The position numbers and the translations under genes were made by a program. This document shows positions 17,603-61,879 of a stretch of DNA of 64,000 bases, piece by piece. The DNA comes from Thermomonas aquatica (GTDB taxonomy: Bacteria > Pseudomonadota > Gammaproteobacteria > Xanthomonadales > Xanthomonadaceae). The notes under the pieces are model-generated. The model had not been told where the DNA came from, searched no databases, and saw only the letters and a program-made list of their open reading frames with translations. The stretch is from positions 744,001-808,000 of the forward strand of contig NZ_CP040871.1 in NCBI RefSeq assembly GCF_006337105.1. The letters are read 5' to 3'. How positions within the stretch are numbered: position 1 is the stretch's first letter; each line of letters opens with the position of its first letter.

Positions 17603-17706
17603 CAATTCGTTCAAGCCGAGTCCGCTTCGCGGCCTCGGACCATGGCAGCTATGATTAGGCCATTGCCTCGGCCGCTCCGCTGCCCGGCTTAACTCAGGCG
17701 TTAGGC
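17597..17706 (+). repeat. attC of C1 (110 nt)
   Basis: R'' gcctaac, R' gttaggc; crossover after G17700. Long class. Confidence 0.9.
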
Positions 17707-17942
17707 GGCGCCAGACAAAGATCTTGTAATCGTGAGTAGTGGCATCACACGGCATCGCAACCTGCGGTTCTCGTCGGCCACAGACTCCGTGCAGCCTGAG
17801 AGCGGCTGCACTCCGTCTGCGGTCGCAAGTCCTGGTGAACAGCATTGCAGGCGCACAGAACCAGTTCTGTGCAGCTGGCCGGGGTTCGATCGCCGTCTTG
17901 TGAAAAATTCATAGTGCCCAGCAACAGCATCGCTGGTCAGCC
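17701..17942 (+). ncRNA. C2: ORF-less cassette family A
   Basis: Divergent copy of family A. It keeps the GTGCAGCC/GGCTGCAC hairpin, the GCACAGAA/TTCTGTGC hairpin and the CAGC/GCTG 3' stem, while the first 60 bases differ from most A copies and match those of C32 and C91. No credible ORF or ribosome site. Candidate structured RNA. Confidence 0.5.
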
Positions 17943-18052
17943 GCCTAACAATTCGTTGGAGCCGACACCGCTTCGCGGCGTCGTCAAAGTCCCGATAAGA
18001 TTGTGACTCTGCCGCCGCCGCAAAGCGGCGCGTCTCAACTCAGGCGTTAGGC
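17943..18052 (+). repeat. attC of C2 (110 nt)
   Basis: R'' gcctaac, R' gttaggc; its arm reads ttcgttggagccgac, unlike other A copies. Confidence 0.88.
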
Positions 18053-18288
18053 AGCACCAGACCAAAGTTCTCAGAACTTGCTGGGTGGAACCAATCTCTT
18101 CCCCGCCTTGCCGCACCTGATCCTCGCCACATACTCCGTGCAGCCTGAGAGCGGCTGCACTCCGTCTGTGGTTGTGGCGTCTCGCGAACAGCATTCGGGC
18201 ACACAGAACTCAGTTCTGTGTAGCCAGCACGGTTCGCTTGCAGACTTGTGAAATTTTTACGGCCGCAGCAAGAGCATCGCTGGCTGCT
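18047..18288 (+). ncRNA. C3: ORF-less cassette family B
   Basis: Hairpin 1 GTGCAGCC/GGCTGCAC is identical to family A. Hairpin 2 is ACACAGAAC (18201-18209) with GTTCTGTGT (18213-18221): the basal pair is A-T where family A has G-C, a compensatory change. Ends with the AAGAGCATCGCTGG motif shared with A. Nearly identical to C52 and C70. Confidence 0.55.
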
Positions 18289-18399
18289 GCCTAACAATTC
18301 GTTCAAGCCGAGTCCGCTTCGCGGCCTCGGCAAATGGCCGCTATGATTCAGCCACTTGCCGTGGCCGCTACGCTGCCCGGCTTAACTCAGGCGTTAGGC
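18289..18399 (+). repeat. attC of C3 (111 nt)
   Basis: R'' gcctaac, R' gttaggc; long class, same type as attC of C11, C52 and C70. Confidence 0.9.
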
Positions 18400-18401
18400 C
18401 C

Positions 18402-18758
18402 ATGTACAAATTTCCTAGCGACCTTGATTTATCGCCTTTAATCGGTGCCTTCACCACGCAAGTTCTAGTCGGTCAGTACGACCTCCAGTTCTATTTCGGT
18501 GACTCATGGCTTGCAACACAGAGCACCGTCGAACTGACCAAAGATCAATCTGTCGTAGGCCGCTGGGAGCCAGGTCGCTGGCCTGACCCCGCATTTCATG
18601 ACGTCATGAATGTAGCCGTCACTCAAGCAATCGTGAAGGACGATCGCAATCTCGTAATCACGTTGGACAACGGACTCTCCATCAACTTCACGGACAACTC
18701 CGATCAGTTTGAGTCCATGCAGATCCGCATCGCAGGTGGGGACATGATCATTGTGTAA
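18402..18758 (+). CDS. C4: hypothetical protein, DUF6188-like
   Basis: 118 aa, soluble. The segment VGQYDLQFYFGDSWLATQSTVEL resembles DUF6188-type proteins that begin with an amphipathic beta pair; the assignment is tentative. Start ATG 18402 is two bases after the attC R' box, so no normal leader exists. Confidence 0.65.
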   Translation: MYKFPSDLDLSPLIGAFTTQVLVGQYDLQFYFGDSWLATQSTVELTKDQSVVGRWEPGRWPDPAFHDVMNVAVTQAIVKDDRNLVITLDNGLSINFTDNSDQFESMQIRIAGGDMIIV

Positions 18759-18764
18759 CCATGG

Positions 18765-18854
18765 GCCTAACAATTCGTTCAAGCCGAGCCCGCTTCGCGG
18801 TCTCGGACCGACCGGATCCGCATCGGGCGGGCCGGCTTAACTCAGGCGTTAGGC
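18765..18854 (+). repeat. attC of C4 (90 nt)
   Basis: R'' gcctaac, R' gttaggc; medium class. Confidence 0.9.
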
Positions 18855-19092
18855 GGCGCCAGGCCAAGATCTTTTCAACGTAAAGACGGCCTTCTCATGC
18901 TGCAGCGCACATCGCAGTTCTCGTCGGCCACATACTCCGTGCAGCCTGAGAGCGGCTGCACTCCGTCTGCGGTTGTGGCTTCTCGGGAACAGCATTGCAG
19001 GCGCACAGAACCAGTTCTGTGCAGCTGGCCGAGATTCGATCGCAGTCTTGTGAAAAATTCACAGTGCCCAGCAAAAGCATCGCTGGTCAGCC
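18849..19092 (+). ncRNA. C5: ORF-less cassette family A
   Basis: Typical family A copy. Hairpin 1: 18939-18946 with 18954-18961. Hairpin 2: GCACAGAAC 19003-19011 with GTTCTGTGC 19014-19022. Then TGTGAA/TTCACA and CCAGC/GCTGG stems. Short frames on both strands are not preceded by ribosome sites and run into attC. Confidence 0.55.
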
Positions 19093-19204
19093 GCCTAACA
19101 ATTCGCTCAAGCCGACTCCGCTTCGTTCCGGCCACGCCGTGGCAGAAAAAGCTTGCCACGGCGTGGCCTCCACTACACTACGCGTCTTAGCTCAGGCGTT
19201 AGGT
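19093..19204 (+). repeat. attC of C5 (112 nt)
   Basis: R'' gcctaac, R' gttaggt; A-type attC with an inner CCACGCCGTGGC / GCCACGGCGTGG palindrome. Confidence 0.9.
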
Positions 19205-19217
19205 TGCAGACAAACAG

Positions 19218-19640
19218 ATGCGCATTCCCACCTTGATTCTGACGCTTCTCGTTGCAGCTTCTGCCGCCGCTGCAGAACGTGACTTTTCTGGTCAATGGAC
19301 TATTGATATCCGATCTCCAGAGGCAGTCAAACAAAACAAAGATTGCGGCTTTGCTTCATTTGACTTGAAGCAGGTCGGAGACAGAATTACCGGCACGCAT
19401 ACATTTGCGACAAGTGGTTGCGGCCGTATCAACGACAGCGGGCCAGTCACAGGAATCCTCGTCAGCCCAAAGAAAGCCGTACTTATCGTAACTAGCGCAA
19501 GAAACGGCGACATCGCTTATGGCATTGCAATTCTTTTGCCTGACCATGATCTCGACTGGAAAACGATTGAATATGTGCGTGAATCAGGCGGAGACTCGCC
19601 ATTGATTCTTGGGAAAGGGCGCTTGCATCCCGGCAAATAA
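19218..19640 (+). CDS. C6: secreted hypothetical protein (copy 1)
   Basis: 140 aa with a signal peptide (about residues 1-19, ending SAAAA). The rest, DFSGQWTIDIRS through GDRITGTHTF, resembles a small lipocalin-like beta barrel found in many secreted unknowns. An identical protein is encoded at 49521 (C67), but the two copies carry different attC sites. Confidence 0.72.
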   Translation: MRIPTLILTLLVAASAAAAERDFSGQWTIDIRSPEAVKQNKDCGFASFDLKQVGDRITGTHTFATSGCGRINDSGPVTGILVSPKKAVLIVTSARNGDIAYGIAILLPDHDLDWKTIEYVRESGGDSPLILGKGRLHPGK

Positions 19641-19647
19641 GGCAGCA

Positions 19648-19737
19648 ACCTAACAATTCGTTCAAGCCGAGCCCGCTTCGCGGTCTCGGGCCAGCCGAGT
19701 CGCCTTCGGGCGGGCCGGCTTAACTCAGGCGTTAGGC
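19648..19737 (+). repeat. attC of C6 (90 nt)
   Basis: R'' acctaac, complementary to the TTAGGT that begins C6; R' gttaggc. Confidence 0.9.
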
Positions 19738-19975
19738 GGCGCCAGGCCAAGATCTTTTCAACGTGAAGATGGCCTTCTCATGCAGCAGCGCACATCGCAG
19801 TTCTCGTCGGCCACATACTCCGTGCAGCCTGAAAGCGGCTGCACTCCGTCTGTGGTCGAAGGTTCAGATGAACAACATTGCTGGCGCACAGAACCAGTTC
19901 TGTGCAGCTGGCCTGGGTTCGATCGCCGTCTTGTGAAAAATTCACAGTGCCCAGCAAAAGCATCGCTGGTCAGCC
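19732..19975 (+). ncRNA. C7: ORF-less cassette family A
   Basis: Typical A copy with both conserved hairpins; the stretch between them reads gtggtcgaaggttcagatgaac, different from C5, showing that the linker drifts while the stems do not. Confidence 0.55.
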
Positions 19976-20087
19976 GCCTAACAATTCGCTCAAGCCGACT
20001 CCGCTTCGTTCCGGCCACGCCGTGGCAGAAAAAGCTTGCCACGGCGTGGCCTCCACTACACTACGCGTCTTAGCTCAGGCGTTAGGC
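19976..20087 (+). repeat. attC of C7 (112 nt)
   Basis: A-type attC; R'' gcctaac, R' gttaggc. Confidence 0.9.
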
Positions 20088-20091
20088 ATCA

Positions 20092-20583
20092 ATGGCAATT
20101 TCTCGTGAGATGCAGGAGCACTTAGAGTCCAGACCTCCTGGCCAAGCAATCGCGACTGCACTAGATCGACTTTTGACAGACGACGCTTACTTGTTTCATG
20201 TAGATGCAAATGAGCGATCAATGTCGTACCGCTTTGCTATGTACCTCCAACAAGAACTCCCGAACTACCACGTTGACTGCGAATACAACCGCACGGGCAT
20301 AAATCCAAAGCGCCTAGATCCTGTCTATCTCCCAACGGAAGCTGATGACACTGAGGGCAAAACCGTATTCCCAGATGTGATCGCCCACATTCGGGGAACT
20401 GATAGAAATCATCTCGTCGTCGAGTTTAAGAAGAGCAGTAGCACAGTGAACCGTGAAATCGACTTCAGGAAACTACGCGGATACAAAGGAGATGTTCGTC
20501 TCCGGTACGAGCATGCATTGTTCATAGAGCTGACAGTCGGAGATCATCCCGGAGTCGCTCGGGCTGAATGGGTTGATGCCTAA
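20092..20583 (+). CDS. C8: PD-(D/E)XK nuclease-like protein
   Basis: 163 aa, soluble. The motif VFPDVIAHIRG followed 13 residues later by LVVEFKKSS (about residues 102-128) matches the PD-(D/E)XK core, and the N-terminal helices precede it as in small restriction-like proteins. Possible anti-phage or DNA-processing role; no partner gene in the cassette. Stop TAA is supplied by R''. Confidence 0.65.
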   Translation: MAISREMQEHLESRPPGQAIATALDRLLTDDAYLFHVDANERSMSYRFAMYLQQELPNYHVDCEYNRTGINPKRLDPVYLPTEADDTEGKTVFPDVIAHIRGTDRNHLVVEFKKSSSTVNREIDFRKLRGYKGDVRLRYEHALFIELTVGDHPGVARAEWVDA

Positions 20584-20667
20584 CAATTCGTTCAAGCCGA
20601 GCCCGCTTCGCGGCCTCGGCACCAACCGATTCGCCTCGGGCGGGCCGGCTTAACTCAGGCGTTAGGC
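20578..20667 (+). repeat. attC of C8 (90 nt)
   Basis: R'' gcctaac, R' gttaggc; overlaps the C8 stop. Confidence 0.9.
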
Positions 20668-20672
20668 CTTCA

Positions 20673-21020
20673 ATGAGCAATCTTCATTTGATGAACTTTC
20701 TTGAGCTCATTGGAAACACGCTTTTCATTGTCGGCTTCTTGGCGCTGCCGGTCGCGCTATTGCTAGCGCACCGTCGGGAGCGTAGTCGCCTGTCTCTCTG
20801 GTTAGTGATCGTGTCATTTGCGTGTTCCCTGAGCGTAATCGCGTCTATCGCTGGCGGCATGGTGATGCATACCGATTGGTTCAGGGACAACGCCGAGGTC
20901 CGGTACAACAGTGTCGTTCACGGCGTTGTATTGGCCAATGGCCTGCTCACCCTCTACTCCGCATCGTTAGCCCTCATCCTGCTCGCAGTGTCCTTCTGGC
21001 GTACCGGCAGGAAGGCCTAA
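20673..21020 (+). CDS. C9: small membrane protein
   Basis: 115 aa with three hydrophobic segments (about 11-32, 39-63, 83-108). No family recognised. The start is six bases from R', and the stop lies in R''. ATG 20688 is an alternative start. Confidence 0.65.
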   Translation: MSNLHLMNFLELIGNTLFIVGFLALPVALLLAHRRERSRLSLWLVIVSFACSLSVIASIAGGMVMHTDWFRDNAEVRYNSVVHGVVLANGLLTLYSASLALILLAVSFWRTGRKA

Positions 21021-21123
21021 CAATTCGTTCAAGCCGAGTCCGCTACGCGGCCTCGGCAGAGCAACGTAAGATTGTCACTCTGCCGTGGCCGCTCCGCTGC
21101 CCGGCTTAACTCAGGCGTTAGGC
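21015..21123 (+). repeat. attC of C9 (109 nt)
   Basis: R'' gcctaac, R' gttaggc. Confidence 0.9.
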
Positions 21124-21126
21124 CCC

Positions 21127-21570
21127 ATGAAAAGAAGTCGCCTACTCAGTGTTTCCATCTGCGCACTTCTGCTAGTTGGGTGCAACACGATTCATTCGAT
21201 TTCGGAACAAGATCAATTTCGCGGAATCGTCGGCGAAGATGTAAAGACTGTTCGACCAGTTTTGCTATGGCGCCTGTCAGAACCGTGGCGATTCGAGCCT
21301 GACATTGCTTTCCAACTTTACGACGAAAATAGTGGCAACTCTCGGGGAGAATGGCTTCCTATCGGTACGACGATCAAAATTCTTGAGATCAACCGGTATC
21401 TGACCAGTGAGGCCGGGCCGTGGGTCGGAGTCGTCGGCACAATCAACTCTCCAAAAAGTGGACTAGTAAAATTCATATACACGTGGCCATCGCATGGATA
21501 CGCTCTTGAACGTGCAGTATGGGAAGGAGATCAAACTCCTAGCAGCCGTCCTTCACGGGCTCTGCGTTAG
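21127..21570 (+). CDS. C10: lipoprotein (copy 1)
   Basis: 147 aa. MKRSRLL start and lipobox LLVGC (Cys 19) predict an outer-membrane or periplasmic lipoprotein. Conserved feature: EWLPIGTTIKILEI. Identical protein at 53379 (C74), with the same attC. The start is three bases from R'. No known family. Confidence 0.75.
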   Translation: MKRSRLLSVSICALLLVGCNTIHSISEQDQFRGIVGEDVKTVRPVLLWRLSEPWRFEPDIAFQLYDENSGNSRGEWLPIGTTIKILEINRYLTSEAGPWVGVVGTINSPKSGLVKFIYTWPSHGYALERAVWEGDQTPSSRPSRALR

Positions 21571-21577
21571 CGCTGGG

Positions 21578-21666
21578 GCCTAACAATTCGTTCAAGCCGA
21601 GCCCGCTTCGCGGTCTCGGACCAGCCGAGTCGCATCGGGCGGGCCGGCTTAACTCAGGCGTTAGGC
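21578..21666 (+). repeat. attC of C10 (89 nt)
   Basis: R'' gcctaac, R' gttaggc. Confidence 0.9.
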
Positions 21667-21902
21667 AGCACCAGACCAAAGTTCTCAGAACTTTCTGAGT
21701 GGAACCAATCTCTCCCGCGCCTTGTCGCACCTGATCCTCGCCACATACTCCGTGCAGCCTGAGAGCGGCTGCACTCCGTCTGTGGTTGTGGCCTTTCGCT
21801 ACCAGCATTCGGGCACACAGAACTCAGTTCTGTGTAGCCAGCACGGCTCGCTTGCAGGCTTGTGAAATTTTTACGGCCGCAGCAAGAGCATCGCTGGCTG
21901 CT
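21661..21902 (+). ncRNA. C11: ORF-less cassette family B
   Basis: Family B copy with small differences from C3 in linkers only; hairpins GTGCAGCC/GGCTGCAC and ACACAGAAC/GTTCTGTGT are unchanged. Confidence 0.55.
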
Positions 21903-22013
21903 GCCTAACAATTCGTTCAAGCCGAGTCCGCTTCGCGGCCTCGGCAAATGGCCGCTATGATTCAGCCACTTGCCGTGGCCGCTACGCTGCCCGGCTTAAC
22001 TCAGGCGTTAGGC
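21903..22013 (+). repeat. attC of C11 (111 nt)
   Basis: R'' gcctaac, R' gttaggc. Confidence 0.9.
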
Positions 22014-22049
22014 ATCAGCATTGAAATCTCCGGCGACTCGAGGGCAACC

Positions 22050-22841
22050 ATGAAAGCCATATTGACAACAAGCGTTTTGTTATTTGCACTCGTTACAAGT
22101 CCGAATGCTACAGCGACTGATCCGTTCCTTTCGATCAAGAAGCGGGAGTTTGGCGTCCTGGTTACACGCACCCGAAATGTGAAGGACTACGCAGGTGTAA
22201 ATGCACTACAGAACGCACCCTCTGCCGATCTTCGTGTTCTCGTGACAACCGAGCAACTCGCCCCTGACGCCACCGAATATGGCGTGGCTGAAGGCTTCTT
22301 TGAGGGGCTCAAACAAGAATATGCGCAGGCGGAGTTCAAAGTTTTCGGAAAAGTCGACAATAGCGACCTTGCAAAACATATCCGCGAGAACTACGACTAC
22401 GTGTTCCTAATCGGAACAAATCAATGGTCCCGCGACTATGAGCGTGATGAAACAGTCTATGGCTCACGCACCTCAGACGTTAAATGCACGAAATCACTAC
22501 TAGGCGACGGCGTAGACTGCAAAGAAACTGGAGCCAGAAGAATTCCAGTCGGGACTCGAACAACGTCCGGAACTGTTGGCACAGATCTCTTCTTCGTGAA
22601 CTATGCGCGCGCGCAACAAGTCGTGGCTGCATTCCAAGGCGAGAACTACACTCCAAAAATATCTATAAGCAATGCCGTTGGTCATATATCGGTCGCAATG
22701 ATCTCTAGCCTAGGCGAATGCGAAAACACCAACAATGCGTTAGCTACGCTCGCACGTATGGCAGGCACCACCGCCATATCTAGCCGCCCCGACGAGACGA
22801 AATTGACAGCAAGGCCAAAAGACATCGGATGTAAGGAATGA
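22050..22841 (+). CDS. C12: secreted hypothetical protein
   Basis: 263 aa from ATG 22050, with a signal peptide of about 22 residues (ending ATA). No family recognised. Three Cys residues and a region YDYVFLIGTNQWSRDY suggest an extracytoplasmic alpha/beta domain. First of two genes in this cassette; there is no attC between it and the next gene. Confidence 0.7.
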   Translation: MKAILTTSVLLFALVTSPNATATDPFLSIKKREFGVLVTRTRNVKDYAGVNALQNAPSADLRVLVTTEQLAPDATEYGVAEGFFEGLKQEYAQAEFKVFGKVDNSDLAKHIRENYDYVFLIGTNQWSRDYERDETVYGSRTSDVKCTKSLLGDGVDCKETGARRIPVGTRTTSGTVGTDLFFVNYARAQQVVAAFQGENYTPKISISNAVGHISVAMISSLGECENTNNALATLARMAGTTAISSRPDETKLTARPKDIGCKE

Positions 22842-22884
22842 GAACCTAGGCACCAAATCTGAGTTACGCATCTGGACAATCTTT

Positions 22885-23109: not shown

Positions 23110-23110
23110 T

Positions 23111-23218: not shown

Positions 23219-23238
23219 GCGGCTACAGGGAGTCGTTT

Positions 23239-23742: not shown

Positions 23743-23746
23743 GCGG

Positions 23747-26400: not shown

Positions 26401-26484
26401 CAATTCGTTCAAGCCGAGCCCGCTTCGCGGTCTCGTCGCGGTCTCACTCGCCGGACGCGGGCCGGCTTAACTCAGGCGTTAGGC
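26395..26484 (+). repeat. attC of C18 (90 nt)
   Basis: R'' ccctaac, complementary to the TTAGGG at the start of C18; R' gttaggc. Confidence 0.9.
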
Positions 26485-26722
26485 GGCGCCAGGCCAAGAT
26501 CTTTTCAACGTGAAGATGGCCTTCTCATGCAGCAGCGCACTTCGCATGTCTCGTCGGCCACATACTCCGTGCAGCCTGAAAGCGGCTGCACTCCGTCTGC
26601 GGTCGTGGCTTCCGGTGAACAGCATTGCAGGCGCACAGAACCAGTTCTGTGCAGCTGGCCGGGATTCGATCGCTGTCTTGTGAAAAATTCACAGTGCCCA
26701 GCAAAAGCATCGCTGGTCAGCC
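26479..26722 (+). ncRNA. C19: ORF-less cassette family A
   Basis: Typical A copy with both hairpins intact; AGCAGCGCACTTCGCATGTC variant of the 5' part, shared with C25 and C82. Confidence 0.55.
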
Positions 26723-26834
26723 GCCTAACAATTCGCTCAAGCCGACTCCGCTTCGTTCCGGCCACGCCGTGGCAGAAAAAGCTTGCCACGGCATGGCCTC
26801 CACTACACTACGCGTCTTAGCTCAGGCGTTAGGC
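26723..26834 (+). repeat. attC of C19 (112 nt)
   Basis: A-type attC; R'' gcctaac, R' gttaggc. Confidence 0.9.
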
Positions 26835-30196: not shown

Positions 30197-30306
30197 GCCT
30201 AACAATTCGTTCAAGCCGAGTCCGCTTCGCGGCCTCGACGGCGGCCCGCTATGATTGAACCACCGTCGTGGCCGCTACGCTGCCCGGCTTAACTCAGGCG
30301 TTAGGC
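30197..30306 (+). repeat. attC of C24 (110 nt)
   Basis: R'' gcctaac, R' gttaggc. Confidence 0.9.
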
Positions 30307-30543
30307 GGCGCTAGGCCAAAATCTTTTCAACGTGAAGATGGCCTTCTCATGCAACAGCGCACTTCGCATGTCTCGTCGGCCACATACTCCGTGCAGCCTG
30401 AGAGCGGCTGCACTCCGTCTGCGGTCGCGTGTTCTGGCAAACAGCATTGCGGCGCACAGAACCAGTTCTGTGCAGCTGGCCGAGATTCGATCGCAGTCTT
30501 GTGAAAAATTCACAGTGCCCAGCAAAAGCATCGCTGGTCAGCC
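30301..30543 (+). ncRNA. C25: ORF-less cassette family A
   Basis: Typical A copy; linker between hairpins differs (cgcgtgttctggcaaacag) and one base is missing before GGCGCACAGAA, while both stems remain perfect. Confidence 0.55.
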
Positions 30544-30655
30544 GCCTAACAATTCGCTCAAGCCGACTCCGCTTCGTTCCGGCCACGCCGTGGCAGGAAG
30601 AGCTTGCCACGGCGTGGCCTCCACTACACTACGCGTCTTAGCTCAGGCGTTAGGC
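30544..30655 (+). repeat. attC of C25 (112 nt)
   Basis: A-type attC; R'' gcctaac, R' gttaggc. Confidence 0.9.
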
Positions 30656-31454: not shown

Positions 31455-31563
31455 ACCTAACAATTCGTTCAAGCCGAGCCCGCTTCGCGGCCTCGGCAGA
31501 GCGTCGTAAGATTGTCACTCTGCCGTGGCCGCAAAGCGGGCCGGCTTAACTCAGGCGTTAGGC
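31455..31563 (+). repeat. attC of C27 (109 nt)
   Basis: R'' acctaac, R' gttaggc. Confidence 0.9.
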
Positions 31564-31801
31564 GGCGCCAGGCCAAGATCTTTTCAACGTGAAGATGGCC
31601 TTCTCATGCTGCAGCGCACATCGCAGTTCTCGTCGGCCACATACTCCGTGCAGCCTGAAAGCGGCTGCACTCCGTCTGTGGTTGAAGGTTCAGGTGAACA
31701 GAATTGCTGGCGCACAGAACCAGTTCTGTGCAGCTGGCCGGGATTCGATCGCTGTCTTGTGAAAAATTCACGGTGCCCAGAAAAAGCATCGCTGGTCAGC
31801 C
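31558..31801 (+). ncRNA. C28: ORF-less cassette family A (tandem copy 1)
   Basis: Nearly identical to the next cassette C29, including attC; one base is missing in the attC A-run and one base differs in the linker. Confidence 0.55.
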
Positions 31802-31912
31802 GCCTAACAATTCGCTCAAGCCGACTCCGCTTCGTTCCGGCCACGCCGTGGCAGAAAAGCTTGCCACGGCGTGGCCTCCACTACACTACGCGTCTTAGCT
31901 CAGGCGTTAGGC
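31802..31912 (+). repeat. attC of C28 (111 nt)
   Basis: A-type attC one base shorter in the loop; R' gttaggc. Confidence 0.9.
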
Positions 31913-32150
31913 GGCGCCAGGCCAAGATCTTTTCAACGTGAAGATGGCCTTCTCATGCTGCAGCGCACATCGCAGTTCTCGTCGGCCACATACTCCGTGC
32001 AGCCTGAAAGCGGCTGCACTCCGTCTGTGGTCGAAGGTTCAGGTGAACAGAATTGCTGGCGCACAGAACCAGTTCTGTGCAGCTGGCCGGGATTCGATCG
32101 CTGTCTTGTGAAAAATTCACGGTGCCCAGAAAAAGCATCGCTGGTCAGCC
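31907..32150 (+). ncRNA. C29: ORF-less cassette family A (tandem copy 2)
   Basis: Direct neighbour and near-copy of C28. Both carry CGGTGCCCAGAAAAAGC in the 3' part, a variant not seen in other A copies, showing a local duplication. Confidence 0.55.
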
Positions 32151-32262
32151 GCCTAACAATTCGCTCAAGCCGACTCCGCTTCGTTCCGGCCACGCCGTGG
32201 CAGAAAAAGCTTGCCACGGCGTGGCCTCCACTACACTACGCGTCTTAGCTCAGGCGTTAGCT
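32151..32262 (+). repeat. attC of C29 (112 nt)
   Basis: A-type attC; R' gttagct. Confidence 0.9.
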
Positions 32263-32815: not shown

Positions 32816-32898
32816 CAATTCGTTCAAGCCGAGCCCGCTTCGCGGTCTCGGACCAGCCGAGTCGCATCGGGCGGGCCGGCTTAACTCAGGCGTTAGGC
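32810..32898 (+). repeat. attC of C31 (89 nt)
   Basis: R'' gcctaac, R' gttaggc. Confidence 0.9.
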
Positions 32899-33136
32899 GG
32901 CGCCAGACAAAAAGATCTGGTAGTCGTGAGTAGACACCTCACACGCCATCGTGGTTTGCGGTTCTCGTCGGCCACATACTCCGTGCAGCCTGAAAGCGGC
33001 TGCACTCCGTCTGCGGTCGTGGCTTCCGGTGAACAGCATTGCAGGCGCACAGAACCAGTTCTGTGCAGCTGGCCGGGATTCGATCGCTGTCTTGTGAAAA
33101 ATTCACAGTGCCCAGCAAAAGCATCGCTGGTCAGCC
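32893..33136 (+). ncRNA. C32: ORF-less cassette family A
   Basis: A copy with the alternative 5' part (caaaaagatctggtagtcgt) shared with C91 and, partly, C2. Both hairpins intact. Confidence 0.55.
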
Positions 33137-33248
33137 GCCTAACAATTCGCTCAAGCCGACTCCGCTTCGTTCCGGCCACGCCGTGGCAGAAAAAGCTTGC
33201 CACGGCGTGGCCTCCACTACACTACGCGTCTTAGCTCAGGCGTTAGCG
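33137..33248 (+). repeat. attC of C32 (112 nt)
   Basis: A-type attC; R' gttagcg. Confidence 0.9.
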
Positions 33249-35300: not shown

Positions 35301-35543
35301 TTAGGCAGCACCAGACCAAAGTTCTCAGGACTTTCAGGTCGGAACGAGTCTCTGCCGCATCTTGCCGTTCTCGGTCATCGCCACAGACTCCGTGCAGCCT
35401 GAGAGCGGCTGCACTCCGCCTGTGGTCATGGCCTATCGCCAACAGCATCGAGCACACAGAACGCAGTTCTGTGTCGCCTGGGTGGTGCATTGGCAAACGT
35501 GTGAATTCTTTACGTCGGCAATCAACAAGCATCGCTGGCTGCT
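35301..35543 (+). ncRNA. C38: ORF-less cassette family B, divergent
   Basis: Sits directly behind an attI-like site. Hairpin 1 unchanged; hairpin 2 is ACACAGAAC / GTTCTGTGT with loop GCA instead of TCA. The rest differs at many bases from other B copies, giving independent support for the stems. Confidence 0.55.
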
Positions 35544-35653
35544 GCCTAACAATTCGCTCAAGCCGAGTCCGCTTCGCGGCCTCGGCGCGGTGTGGCAAGC
35601 TTGTACACCTCGCCGGGGCCGCTGCGCTGCCCGGCTTAGCTCAGGCGTTAGGT
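35544..35653 (+). repeat. attC of C38 (110 nt)
   Basis: R'' gcctaac, R' gttaggt. Confidence 0.9.
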
Positions 35654-37718: not shown

Positions 37719-37832
37719 GGCTAACAATTCGTTCAAGCCGACTCCGCTTCGTTCCGGCGTCAGGCATGGCAGAAAAAGCTTGCCATGCCTGCCACCTCCA
37801 CTACGCTACGCGGCTTAACTCAGGCGTTAGGC
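37719..37832 (+). repeat. attC of C42 (114 nt)
   Basis: R'' ggctaac, R' gttaggc; relative of the A-type attC with a different inner palindrome (CAGGCATGGC / GCCATGCCTG). Confidence 0.9.
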
Positions 37833-38070
37833 GGCGCCAGGCCAAGATCTTTTCAACGTGAAGACGGCCTTCTCATGCTGCAGCGCACATCGCAGTTCTC
37901 GTCGGCCACATACTCCGTGCAGCCTGAAAGCGGCTGCACTCCGTCTGTGGTCGAAGGTTCGGGTGAACAGCATTGCAGGCGCACAGAACCAGTTCTGTGC
38001 AGCTGGCCGAGATTCGATCGCAGTCTTGTGAAAAATTCACAGTGCCCAGCAAAAGCATCGCTGGTCAGCC
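37827..38070 (+). ncRNA. C43: ORF-less cassette family A
   Basis: Typical A copy, both hairpins intact. Confidence 0.55.
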
Positions 38071-38182
38071 GCCCAACAATTCGCTCAAGCCGACTCCGCT
38101 TCGTTCCGGCCACGCCGTGGCAGAAAAAGCTTGCCACGGCGTGACCTCCACTACACTACGCGTCTTAGCTCAGGCGTTAGCT
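38071..38182 (+). repeat. attC of C43 (112 nt), mutated R''
   Basis: R'' reads gcccaac instead of gcctaac, weakening pairing with R'; R' gttagct. Confidence 0.85.
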
Positions 38183-41712: not shown

Positions 41713-41820
41713 AGCTAACAATTCGTCCAAGCCGACACCGCTTCGCGGCGCCGGCAAAGGCCGCTAAGATCGTGCCTTACCGGCGCCGCAAAGCGGTGCG
41801 TCTTAACTCAGGCGTTAGGC
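41713..41820 (+). repeat. attC of C51 (108 nt)
   Basis: R'' agctaac, R' gttaggc. Confidence 0.9.
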
Positions 41821-42056
41821 AGCACCAGACCAAAGTTCTCAGAACTTGCTGGGTGGAACCAATCTCTTCCCCGCCTTGCCGCACCTGATCCTCGCCACAT
41901 ACTCCGTGCAGCCTGAGAGCGGCTGCACTCCGTCTGTGGTTGTGGCGTCTCGCGAACAGCATTCGGGCACACAGAACTCAGTTCTGTGTAGCCAGCACGG
42001 TTCGCTTGCAGACTTGTGAAATTTTTACGGCCGCAGCAAGAGCATCGCTGGCTGCT
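41815..42056 (+). ncRNA. C52: ORF-less cassette family B
   Basis: Family B copy that appears identical to C3 and C70 by eye. Confidence 0.55.
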
Positions 42057-42167
42057 GCCTAACAATTCGTTCAAGCCGAGTCCGCTTCGCGGCCTCGGCA
42101 AATGGCCGCTATGATTCAGCCACTTGCCGTGGCCGCTACGCTGCCCGGCTTAACTCAGGCGTTAGGT
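42057..42167 (+). repeat. attC of C52 (111 nt)
   Basis: R'' gcctaac, R' gttaggt. Confidence 0.9.
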
Positions 42168-51135: not shown

Positions 51136-51225
51136 GCCTAACAATTCGTTCAAGCCGAGCCCGCTTCGCGGTCTCGGACCGACCGGAACCGCATCGGGCG
51201 GGCCGGCTTAACTCAGGCGTTAGGC
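51136..51225 (+). repeat. attC of C69 (90 nt)
   Basis: R'' gcctaac, R' gttaggc. Confidence 0.9.
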
Positions 51226-51461
51226 AGCACCAGACCAAAGTTCTCAGAACTTGCTGGGTGGAACCAATCTCTTCCCCGCCTTGCCGCACCTGATCCTCGC
51301 CACATACTCCGTGCAGCCTGAGAGCGGCTGCACTCCGTCTGTGGTTGTGGCGTCTCGCGAACAGCATTCGGGCACACAGAACTCAGTTCTGTGTAGCCAG
51401 CACGGTTCGCTTGCAGACTTGTGAAATTTTTACGGCCGCAGCAAGAGCATCGCTGGCTGCT
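51220..51461 (+). ncRNA. C70: ORF-less cassette family B
   Basis: Family B copy that appears identical to C3 and C52. Confidence 0.55.
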
Positions 51462-51572
51462 GCCTAACAATTCGTTCAAGCCGAGTCCGCTTCGCGGCCT
51501 CGGCAAATGGCCGCTATGATTCAGCCACTTGCCGTGGCCGCTACGCTGCCCGGCTTAACTCAGGCGTTAGAC
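51462..51572 (+). repeat. attC of C70 (111 nt)
   Basis: R'' gcctaac, R' gttagac. Confidence 0.9.
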
Positions 51573-56043: not shown

Positions 56044-56056
56044 CCGTGTGGCCGGC

Positions 56057-56415: not shown

Positions 56416-56426
56416 AGCGAACAGCA

Positions 56427-56822: not shown

Positions 56823-56925
56823 CAATTCGTTCAAGCCGAGACCGCTGCGCGGCCTCGGCAAAGTCCCGTAGGATTGTGACTCTGCCGTGGCCGCGCAGCG
56901 GTCCGGCTTAACTCAGGCGTTAGGC
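56817..56925 (+). repeat. attC of C81 (109 nt)
   Basis: R'' gcctaac, R' gttaggc. Confidence 0.9.
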
Positions 56926-57163
56926 GGCGCCAGGCCAAAATCTTTTCAACGTGAAGATGGCCTTCTCATGCAACAGCGCACTTCGCATGTCTCGTCGGCC
57001 ACATACTCCGTGCAGCCTGAAAGCGGCTGCACTCCGTCTGCGGTCGGAGGTTCGGGTCAACAGCATTGCAGGCGCACAGAACCAGTTCTGTGCAGCTGGC
57101 CGGGATTCGATCGCTGTCTTGTGAAAAATTCACAGTGCCCAGCAAAAGCATCGCTGGTCAGCC
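56920..57163 (+). ncRNA. C82: ORF-less cassette family A
   Basis: Typical A copy, 5' part as in C19 and C25; both hairpins intact. Confidence 0.55.
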
Positions 57164-57275
57164 GCCTAACAATTCGCTCAAGCCGACTCCGCTTCGTTCC
57201 GGCCACGCCGTGGCAGAAAAAGCTTGCCACGGCGTGACCTCCACTACACTACGCGTCTTAGCTCAGGCGTTATGC
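57164..57275 (+). repeat. attC of C82 (112 nt) with odd R'
   Basis: A-type attC whose downstream bases give R' gttatgc, contributed by C83; R'' gcctaac. Confidence 0.85.
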
Positions 57276-57521
57276 GCGGCCGGAGAAGAGTCTTTGGCTG
57301 GGCCAAGACCTTCGGCATGAGCAGGTCGCCGCGCGGGACCGCGTGGAAGAGACTCCCTACGTTCGGCAGTCGCTTCGGCCACACTCTCGCCTAAGCTCGC
57401 CAGAGCCAAGGCAGGCAACGCAGCCGCCATTTGCCTTCGCCCGTCCAGGCGGATTCCCGCATCCCAAGCCCGATCGCCTTAAGATCACTCGCGTCAATCG
57501 GCTTCGTTGCGCAGCCCCACT
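57270..57521 (+). other. C83: gene-less cassette with atypical ends
   Basis: 252 bases, no credible gene on either strand (longest tight frame 25 codons at 57317). Begins TTATGC and ends GCATAAC, which are complementary to each other but differ from the TTAG ends of all other cassettes. GC-rich, no family partner in the window. Confidence 0.6.
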
Positions 57522-57639
57522 GCATAACGAGTCATTCAAGCCGACGCCGCTTCGCGACGTCGTGGTAACGTCCTTGCATCCGTCCGCTCCTGCTTCGGCC
57601 ACACTTCCGCAGCGGCGCGGCTTAACTCAGGCGTTAGCC
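57522..57639 (+). repeat. attC of C83 (118 nt)
   Basis: R'' gcataac, R' gttagcc; spacer cgagtcattcaagccgac differs from the usual aattcg. Confidence 0.85.
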
Positions 57640-57659
57640 GTCAGATTTGGAGATCCTCT

Positions 57660-58250
57660 ATGTTTTGGGAGAAAACGGTTGAGTACGCTTTCTTATGGAG
57701 AGCGGCGCAAGCTGAGATCGTGGATTTTGCCTCACCTATGTCAGGCAAACAGGAGAGGGGCGCAGGCGACGCAATATTTGGCAAAGACGCAAAACTACTT
57801 CTAATCGAGTTCAAAGCGTCAATTGATGATTTGAAAACTGAAAGAGATAAGTTCGATGACTATCCAACTGCAAAGGAGCTGCTAGGAAATTCGGATGACC
57901 ATCATTTCTTCGTATATGGCAGAAAAGATGAATCAAGATTGGCTTTAGGCCTGCAAAATTTCTTTAGTGAAAAAACGATCAATTTTACCGATATTCATAA
58001 ATATTCAGCAGGCCAGATTTTTTTCAAAAAGTACTTGCTTCAATTTCTTGCATTAAGAAAGCGCGACGAGCGCGGCGCTGGAAAAATTCAACTTTCAGAC
58101 TACACGAGCATCATCGGATTCAATCTAGACAATAAAATTGTTCAAGCCTGCACCCTTTCTGAGTATGCTCAGCACATTTTCCCAAGCATTATGAATGAGT
58201 TCGAGATTACCGAGAATTCCGACTCACCTGGCATGAAGCCAAGAATGTGA
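57660..58250 (+). CDS. C84: PD-(D/E)XK-like protein
   Basis: 196 aa. GAGDAIFGKDAKLLLIEFKAS (about residues 35-55) has the spaced D and E-x-K of a PD-(D/E)XK nuclease. Clearly AT-rich compared with its neighbours, so probably from another lineage. Possible defence nuclease; no partner gene. GGAG site upstream. Confidence 0.65.
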   Translation: MFWEKTVEYAFLWRAAQAEIVDFASPMSGKQERGAGDAIFGKDAKLLLIEFKASIDDLKTERDKFDDYPTAKELLGNSDDHHFFVYGRKDESRLALGLQNFFSEKTINFTDIHKYSAGQIFFKKYLLQFLALRKRDERGAGKIQLSDYTSIIGFNLDNKIVQACTLSEYAQHIFPSIMNEFEITENSDSPGMKPRM

Positions 58251-58251
58251 C

Positions 58252-58360
58252 GGCTAACAATTCGTTCAAGCCGAGCCCGCTTCGCGGCCTCGGCAGGGCA
58301 TCGTAAGATTGTGCCTCTGCCGCGGCCGCAAATCGGCCCGGCTTAACTCAGGCGTTAGGC
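58252..58360 (+). repeat. attC of C84 (109 nt)
   Basis: R'' ggctaac, R' gttaggc. Confidence 0.9.
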
Positions 58361-58650
58361 CTTGCCAGTGAGACTTCAGTAGCAACGGCAGCTCAACGTA
58401 GTTTTCTCGCAATGTTCCGCGCCGCTACGCTCGCGCTCCACCCACCACAGCTCACCTTCGTTTCGTTCAAGGCTGGGCACGCCAGATTTCATCAGGCGTT
58501 GCCGGTGCGGTCTCTCGCTTCGTTCCTTGACCCCTGGCGGTTCGCACGCAGGCGTACGCGGCAACAAGCCCTGCCGCGCGTACCTGCGTGCGAGTGTGAG
58601 ATTTTTACGGGTGAACAGTCGTTTGCAGGAAGAGCAAAGGCTGGTCTACG
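58355..58650 (+). ncRNA. C85: ORF-less cassette family D (copy 2)
   Basis: Stem CGCACGCAGG (58543-58552) with CCTGCGTGCG (58583-58592) is a perfect 10-bp helix at the place where C24 has CGCCC and GGGCG; both arms changed together. Confidence 0.5.
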
Positions 58651-58760
58651 GCCTAACAATTCGTTCAAGCCGAGTCCGCTTCGCGGCCTCGACGGCGGCC
58701 CGCTATGATTGAGCCACCGTCGTGGCCGCTACGCTGCCCGGCTTAACTCAGGCGTTAGGC
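58651..58760 (+). repeat. attC of C85 (110 nt)
   Basis: R'' gcctaac, R' gttaggc; same type as attC of C24. Confidence 0.9.
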
Positions 58761-58772
58761 GGCGCACGACCC

Positions 58773-59216
58773 ATGTCGCGACTGATTTTTTCCTTCGCCC
58801 TACTCTCACTTACGCTGGCAGGCTGCTTTGGAAGTGATCCAAAGTACACCGAGTACTTTCCCGAGGCGAACGGCGACAAACCAGACATCTTTGAGTTGAG
58901 CTTCGTGCAGGTATGCGAGAGCCGTCGGGAAGCGTTTAATGGGGCTGCACGCTTTGCTCGTCGATATCATTTCCTGCAGGAGCGCATCGCAGAACCGGAC
59001 AGTCGAATTGGCTCTGTGTACACTTCCGGCGCTCCAATGCGTGCGCACCTCATGGTGGAACAACTCCATGAACAGCTTTATCGTATCAGCCTTTCTACGT
59101 TTCATGGCTTTCCAACGGATTTAGTTCTGGCGGCGCGCACCTTTAACTTCTGTAGCGCAGAAGGGCCGCCGCCTAACAATTCATTCAAGCCGAACCCGCT
59201 TCGCGGGTCGGCTTAA
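58773..59216 (+). CDS. C86: lipoprotein running into attC
   Basis: 147 aa from ATG 58773, lipobox TLAGC (Cys 18). The frame reads through R'' and ends inside the short attC (tail NNSFKPNPLRGSA), like C26. Unknown family. Confidence 0.68.
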   Translation: MSRLIFSFALLSLTLAGCFGSDPKYTEYFPEANGDKPDIFELSFVQVCESRREAFNGAARFARRYHFLQERIAEPDSRIGSVYTSGAPMRAHLMVEQLHEQLYRISLSTFHGFPTDLVLAARTFNFCSAEGPPPNNSFKPNPLRGSA

Positions 59217-59230
59217 TTCAGGCGTTAGGC
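59171..59230 (+). repeat. attC of C86 (60 nt, short class)
   Basis: R'' gcctaac, R' gttaggc. Confidence 0.9.
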
Positions 59231-59234
59231 GCTA

Positions 59235-59597
59235 ATGTTCAAATTGCTCGCACTATTCATCGCACTGTTTGCAGCCCAGTTGGCGCCCAGAGCTTCCAGT
59301 CAGGATTTGTCTGCGGAACAGAGAGAAGAACTCCGTTCTTTGTTAACCGGCTATTCCGTTGCAATCAGGGATCTAATCGTCGACCGACTGACCCCAGTTC
59401 CATGGCAGGGCAAGGGTGCTTGTACTGTTGAGCTCACCCAGCTACCTGGCGGCCAAGTGATTCGTGCAAGTTTGTCTGATTGTGAATTTCCGGAAGATAT
59501 TCAGAATCAGGTAATCGCGCGACTAGAAACGATGAACACTCCATACCAAGGCTTTGAACGTGTGTTCCGGAGAACTTTTACTATCCGTCTCCGATAG
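59235..59597 (+). CDS. C87: secreted TolA/TonB C-terminal-like protein
   Basis: 120 aa with a signal peptide (about 1-22). CTVELTQLPGGQVIRASLSDC and the following helix-strand (QVIARLETMN, FRRTFTIRL) match the TolA/TonB C-terminal fold without the long helical stalk. Could compete with or mimic TolA in the periplasm (inference). Confidence 0.74.
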   Translation: MFKLLALFIALFAAQLAPRASSQDLSAEQREELRSLLTGYSVAIRDLIVDRLTPVPWQGKGACTVELTQLPGGQVIRASLSDCEFPEDIQNQVIARLETMNTPYQGFERVFRRTFTIRLR

Positions 59598-59616
59598 TAT
59601 CCAATGTGCATCACGC

Positions 59617-59705
59617 GCCTAACAATTCGTTCAAGCCGAGCCCGCTTCGCGGTCTCGGACCAGCCGAATCGCATCGGGCGGGCCGGCTTAACTCAGGCGT
59701 TAGCG
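59617..59705 (+). repeat. attC of C87 (89 nt)
   Basis: R'' gcctaac, R' gttagcg. Confidence 0.9.
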
Positions 59706-59714
59706 CCTTATTCC

Positions 59715-60083
59715 ATGAAGAAAGCATTCATCGCAGCCGCACTACTGATCGCAAGCGCAGCTTCTGCGCAGGCGCCGTCGTCCGCGACAAAACAGGAAGT
59801 CGCCCAGCTGTTCGCAGCACTGCGACAGTCAAATTGTGAGTTCTCGCGCAATGGCTCTTGGTACAACGCCCAGAAAGCCAGCGACCACCTGCAACGGAAG
59901 TACGATTACCTGCTAAAGAAGGGCTTGGTCACATCCACGGAATCATTCATCGAGCTAGCGGCCACCAAGAGCAGCATGTCGGGGAAGCCTTACCAAGTAC
60001 GCTGCGGCAAGACACCTCCGGTATCCAGCCAATATTGGTTCACTAGCAAGCTCAATGCACTTCGTAGTTCTGGCCGGCGCTAA
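59715..60083 (+). CDS. C88: DUF5329-family secreted protein (copy 2)
   Basis: 122 aa, identical to the product at 33258 (C33) with the same attC. Confidence 0.85.
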   Translation: MKKAFIAAALLIASAASAQAPSSATKQEVAQLFAALRQSNCEFSRNGSWYNAQKASDHLQRKYDYLLKKGLVTSTESFIELAATKSSMSGKPYQVRCGKTPPVSSQYWFTSKLNALRSSGRR

Positions 60084-60167
60084 CAATTCGTTCAAGCCGA
60101 GCCCGCTTCGCGGTCTCGGACCGACCGGAACCGCATCGGGCGGGCCGGCTTAACTCAGGCGTTAGGC
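60078..60167 (+). repeat. attC of C88 (90 nt)
   Basis: R'' cgctaac, R' gttaggc. Confidence 0.9.
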
Positions 60168-60452
60168 GGCTACCAAATCCACTCGCACCCTGAAGCCAAG
60201 AGCAGTTGCTGCTCTGGTCATAGTTTCAAGTGTCAATCCGGTATCAGTCGCATCGAGCATTCGATCCACAACCGTCCGACTCGTGTGCATACGCTTGGCC
60301 AATGCGCTTTTGTTCACGCCAGTTGTTTGCATCGCTTGCTCAATTTGCCATGCAATCACGCGCTTAACGGCAATCGCAGTCGCCTCTTCAAGCTCGCCCT
60401 GCTCTGCCAAGAAAACGTCAAAGTCGCTGCCAATGTGCTTGTTCTTGCTCAT
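60162..60452 (-). CDS. C89: HigA-type XRE antitoxin
   Basis: 96 aa helix-turn-helix protein (TGVNKSALAKRMHTSRTVVD). Strong GAGGTGAGG ribosome site within the toxin gene, four-base overlap with it. The TAA stop is the complement of the crossover TTA at 60162. Confidence 0.88.
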   Translation of the reverse strand: MSKNKHIGSDFDVFLAEQGELEEATAIAVKRVIAWQIEQAMQTTGVNKSALAKRMHTSRTVVDRMLDATDTGLTLETMTRAATALGFRVRVDLVAA

Positions 60453-60790
60453 GCCCTCACCTCTTTCATGCGGAGTACTGCCAAAGCGAGATCCGCCTTT
60501 GGTGTCGCTTGCGTCTTCTTTACAAAGCCGTGCAACAACACCATGTCTGCGCCAACCACTGTGAAAAGCACGCGGGCAATTCCCTCAGGGATACTGCTGC
60601 GCACTTCCCACAGGCCAGGTTCCATCTTGCGTACAACCGGCATTCCGACCGGCCAGCCAAACTGAACTGTCTTGATGTCCGCACCAATCGCTTTCCTCGC
60701 ACCAAGCGAGACTTGCTCTATCAGCCAATCGCGGACAGGCTCTTTGCCTGTTGTCGTAGAGTAGAAACGCACAGACAAGATTGGTGGCAT
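60449..60790 (-). CDS. C89: HigB-type (Gp49-like) toxin
   Basis: 113 aa from ATG 60790. SVRFYSTTTGKEPVRDWLIE, GLWEVRSSIPEGIARVLFTV and LLHGFVKKTQATP are typical of HigB/Gp49 RelE-superfamily toxins. An in-frame ATG at 60817 lies upstream of the predicted transcript start and is rejected. Confidence 0.9.
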   Translation of the reverse strand: MPPILSVRFYSTTTGKEPVRDWLIEQVSLGARKAIGADIKTVQFGWPVGMPVVRKMEPGLWEVRSSIPEGIARVLFTVVGADMVLLHGFVKKTQATPKADLALAVLRMKEVRA

Positions 60791-60796
60791 GCGCGA

Positions 60797-60824
60797 ATCG
60801 TACTTAAATAAGTGCAATTGTCAA
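60797..60824 (-). promoter_or_regulatory. C89 higBA promoter
   Basis: Minus strand TTGACA (60824-60819) and TACGAT (60802-60797), 16 bases apart. ACTTA/TAAGT palindrome within the spacer is a likely HigA operator. Six bases separate the -10 from the toxin ATG, so the message is probably leaderless. Confidence 0.75.
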
Positions 60825-60832
60825 GCGCCGCC

Positions 60833-60922
60833 GCCTAACAATTCGTTCAAGCCGAGCCCGCTTCGCGGTCTCGGACCGACCGGAACCGCATCGGGCGGGC
60901 CGGCTTAACTCAGGCGTTAGGT
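60833..60922 (+). repeat. attC of C89 (90 nt)
   Basis: R'' gcctaac, R' gttaggt. Confidence 0.9.
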
Positions 60923-60948
60923 CTTTGCCCCGGTCACTTGCGCACTCC

Positions 60949-60972
60949 AAAGTGATACTGTAGTGTCACTTT
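60949..60972 (+). promoter_or_regulatory. C90 operator
   Basis: Inverted repeat AAAGTGATAC / GTGTCACTTT (one mismatch, 4-base centre) ending one base before the antitoxin ATG. Probably bound by the antitoxin; TTGCGC and TGTAGT are a weak promoter pair around it. Confidence 0.6.
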
Positions 60973-60973
60973 C

Positions 60974-61231
60974 ATGCGCACTGAACTCGTCACAACTCTG
61001 AAGCGGCAGGCCACTGAACTCCTCTCAGATATTGAGCGGGATAAAGAGCCAATTCTCATTACCCAGCATGGCCTGCCAAGCGCCTATCTCCTGGATGTTG
61101 AGACTTATCAGCTCATGCAACAGCGCATGGCCATCCTTGAAGGCATTGCCCGCGGAGAGCAAGCCCTAGCAGAAGGCCGTGTGGCAACTCATACGCAAGC
61201 AAAGAAGCGTCTCGCCAGATGGCTGAAATAG
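60974..61231 (+). CDS. C90: Phd/YefM-family antitoxin
   Basis: 85 aa. LVTTLKRQATELLSDIERDKEPILITQHGLP and SAYLLDVETYQ are Phd-fold blocks. Overlaps the toxin by 13 bases. Confidence 0.88.
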   Translation: MRTELVTTLKRQATELLSDIERDKEPILITQHGLPSAYLLDVETYQLMQQRMAILEGIARGEQALAEGRVATHTQAKKRLARWLK

Positions 61232-61539
61232 TCTGGTCAGAGCCCGCTCTCGCGGATCTTGACGCAATTGCCGACTACATCGCACTGGAGAACCCAGTTG
61301 CGGCGTCTGAGCTAGTCAAGCGCATCTTTGGCCACATCGAACAGCTCGTGAATCACCCTGAGAGCGGGAGTCGCCCGCAAGAGCTTGGGAAATCGCGCTA
61401 CCGTCAGATCGTGGAGCCGCCCTGCCACGTCTTCTACCGTTATGACGGGCACAAGGTTTTCATCCTGCACGTCATGCGTTCGGAACGATTGCTCCGCAAG
61501 GGCCAGCTTGCCAAGCGCTCCAAGCAAGCAAAGACCTAA
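61219..61539 (+). CDS. C90: ParE/RelE-family toxin
   Basis: 106 aa. IVWSEPALADLDAIADYIALEN, SGSRPQELGKSRYRQIVEPPCHVFYR and VMRSERLLRK fit ParE-like RelE-superfamily toxins. Pairing Phd antitoxin with ParE-type toxin is common. Stop in R''. Confidence 0.9.
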   Translation: MAEIVWSEPALADLDAIADYIALENPVAASELVKRIFGHIEQLVNHPESGSRPQELGKSRYRQIVEPPCHVFYRYDGHKVFILHVMRSERLLRKGQLAKRSKQAKT

Positions 61540-61641
61540 CAATTCGTTCAAGCCGAGACCGCTTCGCGGCCTCGGCGTGGCGTCGTAGACTGTGCCATCG
61601 CCGCGGCCGCAAATCGGCCCGGCTTAACTCAGGCGTTAGGC
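61534..61641 (+). repeat. attC of C90 (108 nt)
   Basis: R'' acctaac, R' gttaggc. Confidence 0.9.
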
Positions 61642-61879
61642 GGCGCCAGACAAAAAGATCTGGTAGTCGTGAGTAGACACATCACACGCCATCGTGGTTT
61701 GTGGTTCTCGTCGGCCACATACTCCGTGCAGCCTCAAAGCGGCTGCACTCCGTCTGCGGTCGAAGGTTCGGGTCAACAGCATTGCAGGCGCACAGAACCA
61801 GTTCTGTGCAGCTGGCCGGGATTCGATCGCAGTCTTGTGAAAAATTCACAGTGCCCAGCAAAAGCATCGCTGGTCAGCC
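61636..61879 (+). ncRNA. C91: ORF-less cassette family A
   Basis: A copy with the C32-type 5' part. The hairpin 1 loop changes to TCAAAGC while both arms stay perfect. Confidence 0.55.

Follow-up and report, generated by a model that had tools for sequence, protein, structure and literature searches.

The attC sites of integrons function as folded single-stranded DNA (ssDNA) of the bottom strand, and sRNA-Xcc1, an RNA borne on an integron cassette, is an Rfam family. For the gene-less cassettes of chromosomal integrons, promoters and a few regulatory RNAs are named in the relevant sections of two papers (PMC8876359, PMC11014356). Where PMC12444791 treats sRNA-Xcc1, the RNA shares its cassette with symE, both being oriented against Pc, and the title of a reference listed there places it under HrpG/HrpX control; the section of PMC8876359 that names it gives it as an example of a regulatory RNA in cassettes without an open reading frame, and on cassette content the two sections disagree. 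Vibrionaceae gene-less cassettes, in the parts of PMC11014356 devoted to them, bear promoters on the sense strand and in some cases also on the antisense strand, and promoter prediction fails for them; small RNAs are named in that paper as proposed content, and the terms 'secondary structure', 'srna' and 'non-coding' do not occur in it. Here a stretch of 64,000 nucleotides (nt) from Thermomonas aquatica is considered (the window; positions 744001-808000 of genome G000, a single contig of 3.006 Mb), in which 16 gene-less cassettes of an integron array, families A and B, carry a hairpin element termed the clasp. The best explanation of the findings is that A and B are part of an old superfamily of gene-less cassettes, the core of which is the clasp, on the strand opposite the array. 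A search at title and abstract level of the open-licence literature (integrons, gene-less cassettes, cassette RNAs, Thermomonas) found no such element described.

The attC array begins at about 17.6 kb and extends through the window end and further. A first-pass annotation of the window had proposed 11 A and five B cassettes, and exact pattern counts agree. GTGCAGCC occurs 16 times on the plus strand, with GGCTGCAC 15 nt after every one; one extra GGCTGCAC, at 58943, is without partner. The second stem proposed for these cassettes is likewise found, as GCACAGAAC/GTTCTGTGC in 11 copies (A) and ACACAGAAC/GTTCTGTGT in five (B). The cassette bodies are 249-251 nt long and span 17701-61886:

17701..17949, minus strand, family A body; clasp at 17775-17825 (outer stem, GGA/GGA loop, inner stem)
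18047..18295, minus strand, family B body; clasp at 18124-18174
18849..19099, minus strand, family A body; clasp at 18925-18975
19732..19982, minus strand, family A body; clasp at 19808-19858
21661..21909, minus strand, family B body; clasp at 21738-21788
26479..26729, minus strand, family A body; clasp at 26555-26605
30301..30550, minus strand, family A body with a 1-nt linker deletion; clasp at 30377-30427
31558..31808, minus strand, family A body, in tandem with the copy at 31907; clasp at 31634-31684
31907..32157, minus strand, family A body; clasp at 31983-32033
32893..33143, minus strand, family A body; clasp at 32969-33019
35301..35550, minus strand, family B body, the most diverged of three distinct ones, with a bottom-strand G-U in the outer stem; clasp at 35378-35428
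37827..38077, minus strand, family A body; clasp at 37903-37953
41815..42063, minus strand, family B body, identical to the copies at 18047 and 51220; clasp at 41892-41942
51220..51468, minus strand, family B body; clasp at 51297-51347
56920..57170, minus strand, family A body; clasp at 56996-57046
61636..61886, minus strand, family A body; clasp at 61712-61762

In the whole G000 genome the stem pattern has 19 matches (16 in the window and three just past it), all on one strand, and the reversed pattern, used as a control, has none. The three further copies are of family A, which brings the genome to 19 A/B copies; a covariance model detected none elsewhere, the next match being at E=0.3. The clasp element in G000 is restricted to the array. 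The A copies are 62-100% identical to one reference copy, certain cassette bodies are exact duplicates, and family B comprises only three distinct bodies. Such likeness would suit a neutral by-product, that is, repeats copied by IntI whose hairpins persist by recency.

How is the clasp built? On the minus strand the first hairpin reads GGAG-TGCAGCC-loop-GGCTGCA-CGGAG, and beyond a GGA/GGA internal loop it is closed by an outer stem, CCRCAGAC paired with GTMTGTGG. The main stem of the first-pass annotation is therefore the inner half of a larger element, whose outer stem had been overlooked. The general plan is an outer stem of 6-8 bp, a 3x3 internal loop, an inner stem of 8 bp and a loop of 6-8 nt; the internal loop has GGA facing GGA, or GGA facing GTA, and is purine-rich on the bottom strand only, and the outer stem is not seen in family E. 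Together, outer stem and first hairpin are a stronger structure than the second hairpin, on whose basal pair the argument for selection had been built. The A/B difference at that pair is present, but a single fixed difference is one event; since, in addition, no counterpart was seen by eye among the printed cassettes of families C, E, F and K (no systematic test was made), the second hairpin is weak evidence. The end motif said to be shared by both families (AGCAAGAGCATCGCTGG-like, up to three mismatches) holds for 15 of the 16 copies and is absent from the B copy at 35301. Complementarity of the cassette ends of at least 3 nt past the attC box was considered as an RNA closing stem and rejected; it is general, being present in 68% of 71 ordinary G000 cassettes (shuffled pairs 8%) and 56% of 45 ordinary G015 cassettes (shuffled 5%), and therefore is a feature of attC.

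Relatives of A and B, families C-F, K and M, are found in short cassettes of five other genomes, four from the same genus and one from a different one. In G015, which is of the same genus, six C cassettes and a D cassette resemble A/B around the clasp only, and one G015 copy has GTGCCGCC with GGCGGCAC, a change on both stem sides. A minus-strand covariance model, R1, built from 23 of 26 G000 and G015 elements, was run against 395 genomes of the bacterial family (E<=0.01) and gave matches in four, G000, G015, G022 (same genus) and G071 (another genus); stricter filters were used, and weak matches may be lost. G022 has 15 F cassettes with the inner stem TGCCGGC/GCCGGCA, and in these the bodies drift, with the clasp and its 3' flank almost invariant. 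One G071 cassette without evident gene carries two clasps. Family E, aligned from 15 short G015 cassettes, has the analogous CGGAG-GCGCGGC-YGCTTTGT-GCTGCGC-CGTAG, with no outer stem in this register. A descriptor that leaves the stem sequence free, requiring a perfect 8-bp stem between a foot of GGAG or AGAG and one of GGA or GTA, was applied to 39 sequences, namely the three arrays, G071 and 35 integrase-flanking regions of other genomes, 817,418 bases in all. It recovered family K (GGCATAAC and variants), with three copies in G000 (all past the window end), five in G022 and one each in the retrieved portions of G009 and G017, and family M, with five in G022. Perfect-stem matches inside the window are exactly the 16 A/B clasps. 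Families F and E were discovered independently of the descriptor, by the sequence-structure model and as a repeated cassette, respectively.

Do these families have one origin? Shared motifs suggest so. A GCTYTTG-like box on the bottom strand, chosen post hoc, is present within the initial 40 nt in 39 of the 66 distinct bodies (occurrences: 67 bottom, nine top); over the whole G000 array GCTYTTG occurs 44 times on the bottom and 27 times on the top strand, the bias being strong only within clasp cassettes. By eye, GGCGAG 3' of the clasp and AAGATCT near the cassette end opposite the box also appear common to the families.

Covariation was assessed on an alignment (A4) of 28 of the 43 elements found by R1, from four genomes, mostly identical copies having been left out; 26 are distinct. 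Standard pairs make up 93.8% of its pair cells, and six pairs show changes on both sides, in 33 cells. The covariation score is 0.247, compared with 0.113+/-0.011 for shuffled alignments, and none of 500 shuffles equals it, a result that is not a probability, as the shuffles ignore relatedness; the 12 further pair types were reached in four of 500. With the partners slid by 1-3 columns, only 25-44% pair on A4, and 17.5-42.5% on a smaller alignment, A2. The selection on structure argued for earlier thus stands, on the score exceeding 500 of 500 shuffles. Among the 54 distinct elements of the descriptor set, two or more Watson-Crick types are represented at seven of eight inner pairs, and the inner cells comprise 402 Watson-Crick, 27 bottom G-U, no top G-U and three other pairs; both counts arise partly by construction, the scan allowing G-T on the scanned strand and up to one mismatch (five of 79 rows were removed, one in L183, three in L175 and one overlapping match). 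Free of construction are the A4 covariation, the A4 wobble cells, the bottom/top counts and the outer stem. The last pairs in 68.8% of cells over the 54 elements, as against 58.1% when shuffled (shuffle maximum 63.6%), and its pooled cells are 207 Watson-Crick, 16 bottom G-U, 15 top G-U (all 15 in E) and 86 other. An all-family MAFFT alignment, in which the inner 5' arm was one column out of register, was excluded from the counts.

Which strand folds? The descriptor scan gave 69 perfect-stem matches on the array bottom strand and none on the top; with one mismatch allowed, 79 and five. Among the 26 distinct elements of A4 there are 19 bottom G-U cells, no top G-U and 26 other mismatches, and the 19 are spread over seven pair positions and all four genomes. 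Transitions outside the clasp are balanced, with 62 A>G plus C>T and 52 G>A plus T>C (F, A and C summed), so the wobble asymmetry does not come from mutation bias. Consensus energies of whole cassettes do not favour one strand throughout: they are better on the bottom strand for B, C, F, E and all families together, but not for A or for A+B. Folds of whole cassettes on the plus strand, when compared with shuffles, gave z -3.18 for A and -1.97 for B, and C folds no better than shuffles (z 0.36); these top-strand folds were set aside after the wobbles indicated the bottom strand. The inner structure, its covariation and its bottom-strand specificity are shown by these data, and structural selection on the clasp in the bottom strand is, in our judgement, close to certain. 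A neutral origin in IntI-copied repeats is refuted for the inner stem, and as a general account it is very improbable: F bodies drift while clasp and 3' flank stay nearly fixed, stems change on both sides across genomes, and the strand bias is 19:0 in the stem compared with 62:52 at neutral sites.

The attC sites of the same three arrays served as a control. At well-flanked pairs of their stems, G-T is found 162 times on the bottom and ten times on the top strand (42:9, 7:0 and 113:1), many of these pairs being from related sites, with 40 bottom and seven top as distinct position classes; under a looser criterion that takes in every aligned position the figures are 802 and 577. In the attC sites of the window's array (e.g. 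17943-18046) the asymmetry is an evolutionary trace of bottom-strand folding. G-T asymmetry thus offers a simple evolutionary way to tell the selected DNA strand of a hairpin from the other.

Could the cassettes instead encode a short protein? A has open frames of up to 83 codons without stop, and in one top frame of B (three distinct rows) 22 of 48 variable sites are third-position, with 15 synonymous and 18 nonsynonymous single-step changes. Nevertheless, gaps counted per row are out of frame in 48 of 48 cases in the A, B, C and F alignments, which upholds structure rather than protein, and in 70 of 71 in family E; variable sites of A and F are near-evenly spread over codon positions in all six frames, and no frame that is long in every copy of every family was found. 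A, B, C and F are non-coding, coding is refuted for A and F, and the chance of a cassette-encoded protein is negligible.

What, then, is the folded molecule? Covariation over shuffles together with strand-specific wobble is what a structured RNA shows, and folded ssDNA would show it equally. RNA is narrowly preferred, with a probability of about 0.5, because of the shared primary-sequence motifs and the precedent of sRNA-Xcc1 as a reverse-oriented cassette RNA in the pertinent section of PMC12444791. Transcription, starting inside the cassette and running leftwards, would yield a small RNA of about 150-250 nt, with the clasp as its protein-binding or folding core, and spread by IntI would account for the 22-25 copies of the cassette in each of the three best-covered arrays. 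Several observations weigh against an RNA. More than 20 copies per genome is, in our judgement, unusual for a regulatory RNA. The strand on which the clasp folds is the one attC uses as ssDNA, with the same wobble asymmetry, so that ssDNA fits equally well. Within 17600-22100, the only stretch scanned, one sigma-70 promoter was found where 1.8 were expected, and six terminators where 5.5 were expected. The A+B consensus energy is better on the top strand (-72.3 vs -66.8), and that of A is level. The outer stem is imperfect (7-46 is G-G in F, 9-44 G-A and 10-43 A-A), and in family E the outer positions pair in 21 of 84 cells, the 15 A.C cells being top-strand G-U if paired.

The clasp may instead act as folded bottom-strand ssDNA, the strand used by IntI, for example by helping to extrude, protect or re-prime the single-stranded cassette, which would then be a selfish passenger; this is possible, if less probable than an RNA. 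GGA/GGA loops pair well in DNA, which counts in its favour. So do the 69:0 placement of perfect stems on the attC bottom strand, the like G-T asymmetry of attC stems (162:10; 40:7 as position classes), promoters and terminators not above chance in the stretch scanned, and the many intervals filled, clasp cassettes taking 22 of 92 in G000, 23 of 68 in G015 and 24 of 130 in G022 (18-34% in the three arrays counted). It does not predict the conserved motifs outside the hairpin, however, and the model search found the clasp in few of many integron-bearing genomes; moreover, descent of all families from one ancestor would fix the orientation by inheritance and reduce the weight of the strand coincidence to about a factor of two. 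More broadly, and tentatively, the clasp might be a second class of selected bottom-strand single-strand structure besides attC, marking an ancient gene-less superfamily and acting in single-strand recombination or replication of cassettes; if so, gene-less cassettes would be selfish passengers of IntI. A third possibility is that the palindromes serve as double-stranded sites for a regulator or belong to a promoter, on the pattern of Vibrio gene-less cassettes, and the promoters ascribed to Vibrionaceae cassettes in the sections cited above (PMC11014356) speak for it. It is doubtful, as an operator explains neither G-U on one strand only (19:0) nor stems that differ in sequence yet pair, and the promoter scan found no sigma-70-like promoter above chance, though such prediction fails for cassettes of this kind according to the same sections (PMC11014356).

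A relation of A/B to sRNA-Xcc1, which had been raised as the first question, is neither supported nor excluded. A search of the window with Rfam 15 yielded nothing at gathering score. E-value searches with Rfam of 17200-64000 and of L120, L081 and L117 returned only sub-threshold matches, to microRNA models, a threonine leader and the Xanthomonas sRNA asX3, the last at L120:1559-1736 with 28.4 bits against a cut-off of 40 and outside the clasp cassette. The mir-1304 model matches attC at 31467-31551 and 58266-58346 (minus strand) with low E-values below gathering score; these are probably false positives from attC folding.

How widely is the clasp distributed? A broader model, R2, gave convincing matches among the 395 family genomes in G000, G015, G022 and G071 only, and the 398 genomes of the order (one match rejected) and 369 of the class added no accepted one; R2 did not pick up E in G015 or K in G009 and G017, and absence is weakly supported. 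Of 25 genomes of the genus, 22 carry an integron integrase, as do 200 of 316 in the family; the draft genome G071 has none above the cut-off. Nine of 15 genus regions, and two of 20 other-genus regions, ended early at contig ends. The 20 other-genus regions gave no perfect-stem match and, with one mismatch, four bottom and four top matches. A candidate family N in G112 (three bottom matches, one mismatch each) was left out, the 4:4 count giving no above-chance signal. Its sequences in G112 (L175), near 10392, 12632 and 19618, read GCCGT-G-CGC AGC GCG-G-ACGGC, with a GCCAT/ATGGC variant, and make a weak candidate for a clasp family in another genus. Model matches in G278 (E 2e-4), G391, G403 and G543 were rejected, as no attC-like motif lies within the 3-kb loci. 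In G403 and G391 (L123, L124) a hairpin with the family F inner stem and loop occurs with no attC-like motif nearby; perhaps it is a terminator or due to chance. A pattern scan of a named genome collection, which may omit records near the window's genome, gave seven stretches, none like a gene-less cassette by eye, and three scans of viral contigs gave one, zero and zero matches, the one likewise unlike such a cassette. A search of plasmids with a single F element returned 12 records, at E 0.9.

The start of the array in the window adjoins an integron integrase gene, which has a second in tandem:

16058..17161, minus strand, integron integrase; identity to the Thermomonas sp. HDW16 enzyme 93% over 94% of the length
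15010..15945, minus strand, second integrase, scoring above the integron-integrase cut-off

G009 likewise has two in tandem, and G022 has one intact gene beside one split across two frames. Within the array, near-identical 300-nt pairs (98-99%) at 21096/53348, 33227/59684, 44343/48390, 32536/42502 and 19170/49473 are apparently duplicated cassettes.

A whole superfamily of gene-less cassettes is tied here to one covarying, strand-specific structure, which opens the question of its function to tests using a defined element and point mutants. How does the clasp compare with known systems? Hairpins of REP elements have a GGAG or GTAG tetranucleotide at the foot. The clasp shares this with REP/RAYT palindromes and differs from them in not being dispersed, 19 of 19 G000 copies lying in the array. 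sRNA-Xcc1, in the section of PMC12444791 that describes it, is like A/B, on the RNA reading of these, in being a non-coding RNA of an integron cassette, in the same bacterial family, oriented opposite to Pc; the difference is that it is described there with symE, whereas the A/B cassettes are without gene, a comparison made by description and Rfam only. Families A, B, C and F are attC-bounded cassettes with no gene (E, K and M are assigned as gene-less by length and sequence only), and in having attC, no gene and several copies per chromosomal integron they resemble those of Vibrionaceae and Treponema, which differ in being shown to carry promoters in the pertinent parts of PMC11014356 and PMC8876359. 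The attC sites resemble the clasp as imperfect hairpins functional on the bottom strand with G-T on that strand; yet the clasp lies inside the cassette body, has CGGAG feet instead of RYYYAAC/GTTRRRY boxes forming an outer stem at the recombination point, and is accompanied in each cassette by a separate attC.

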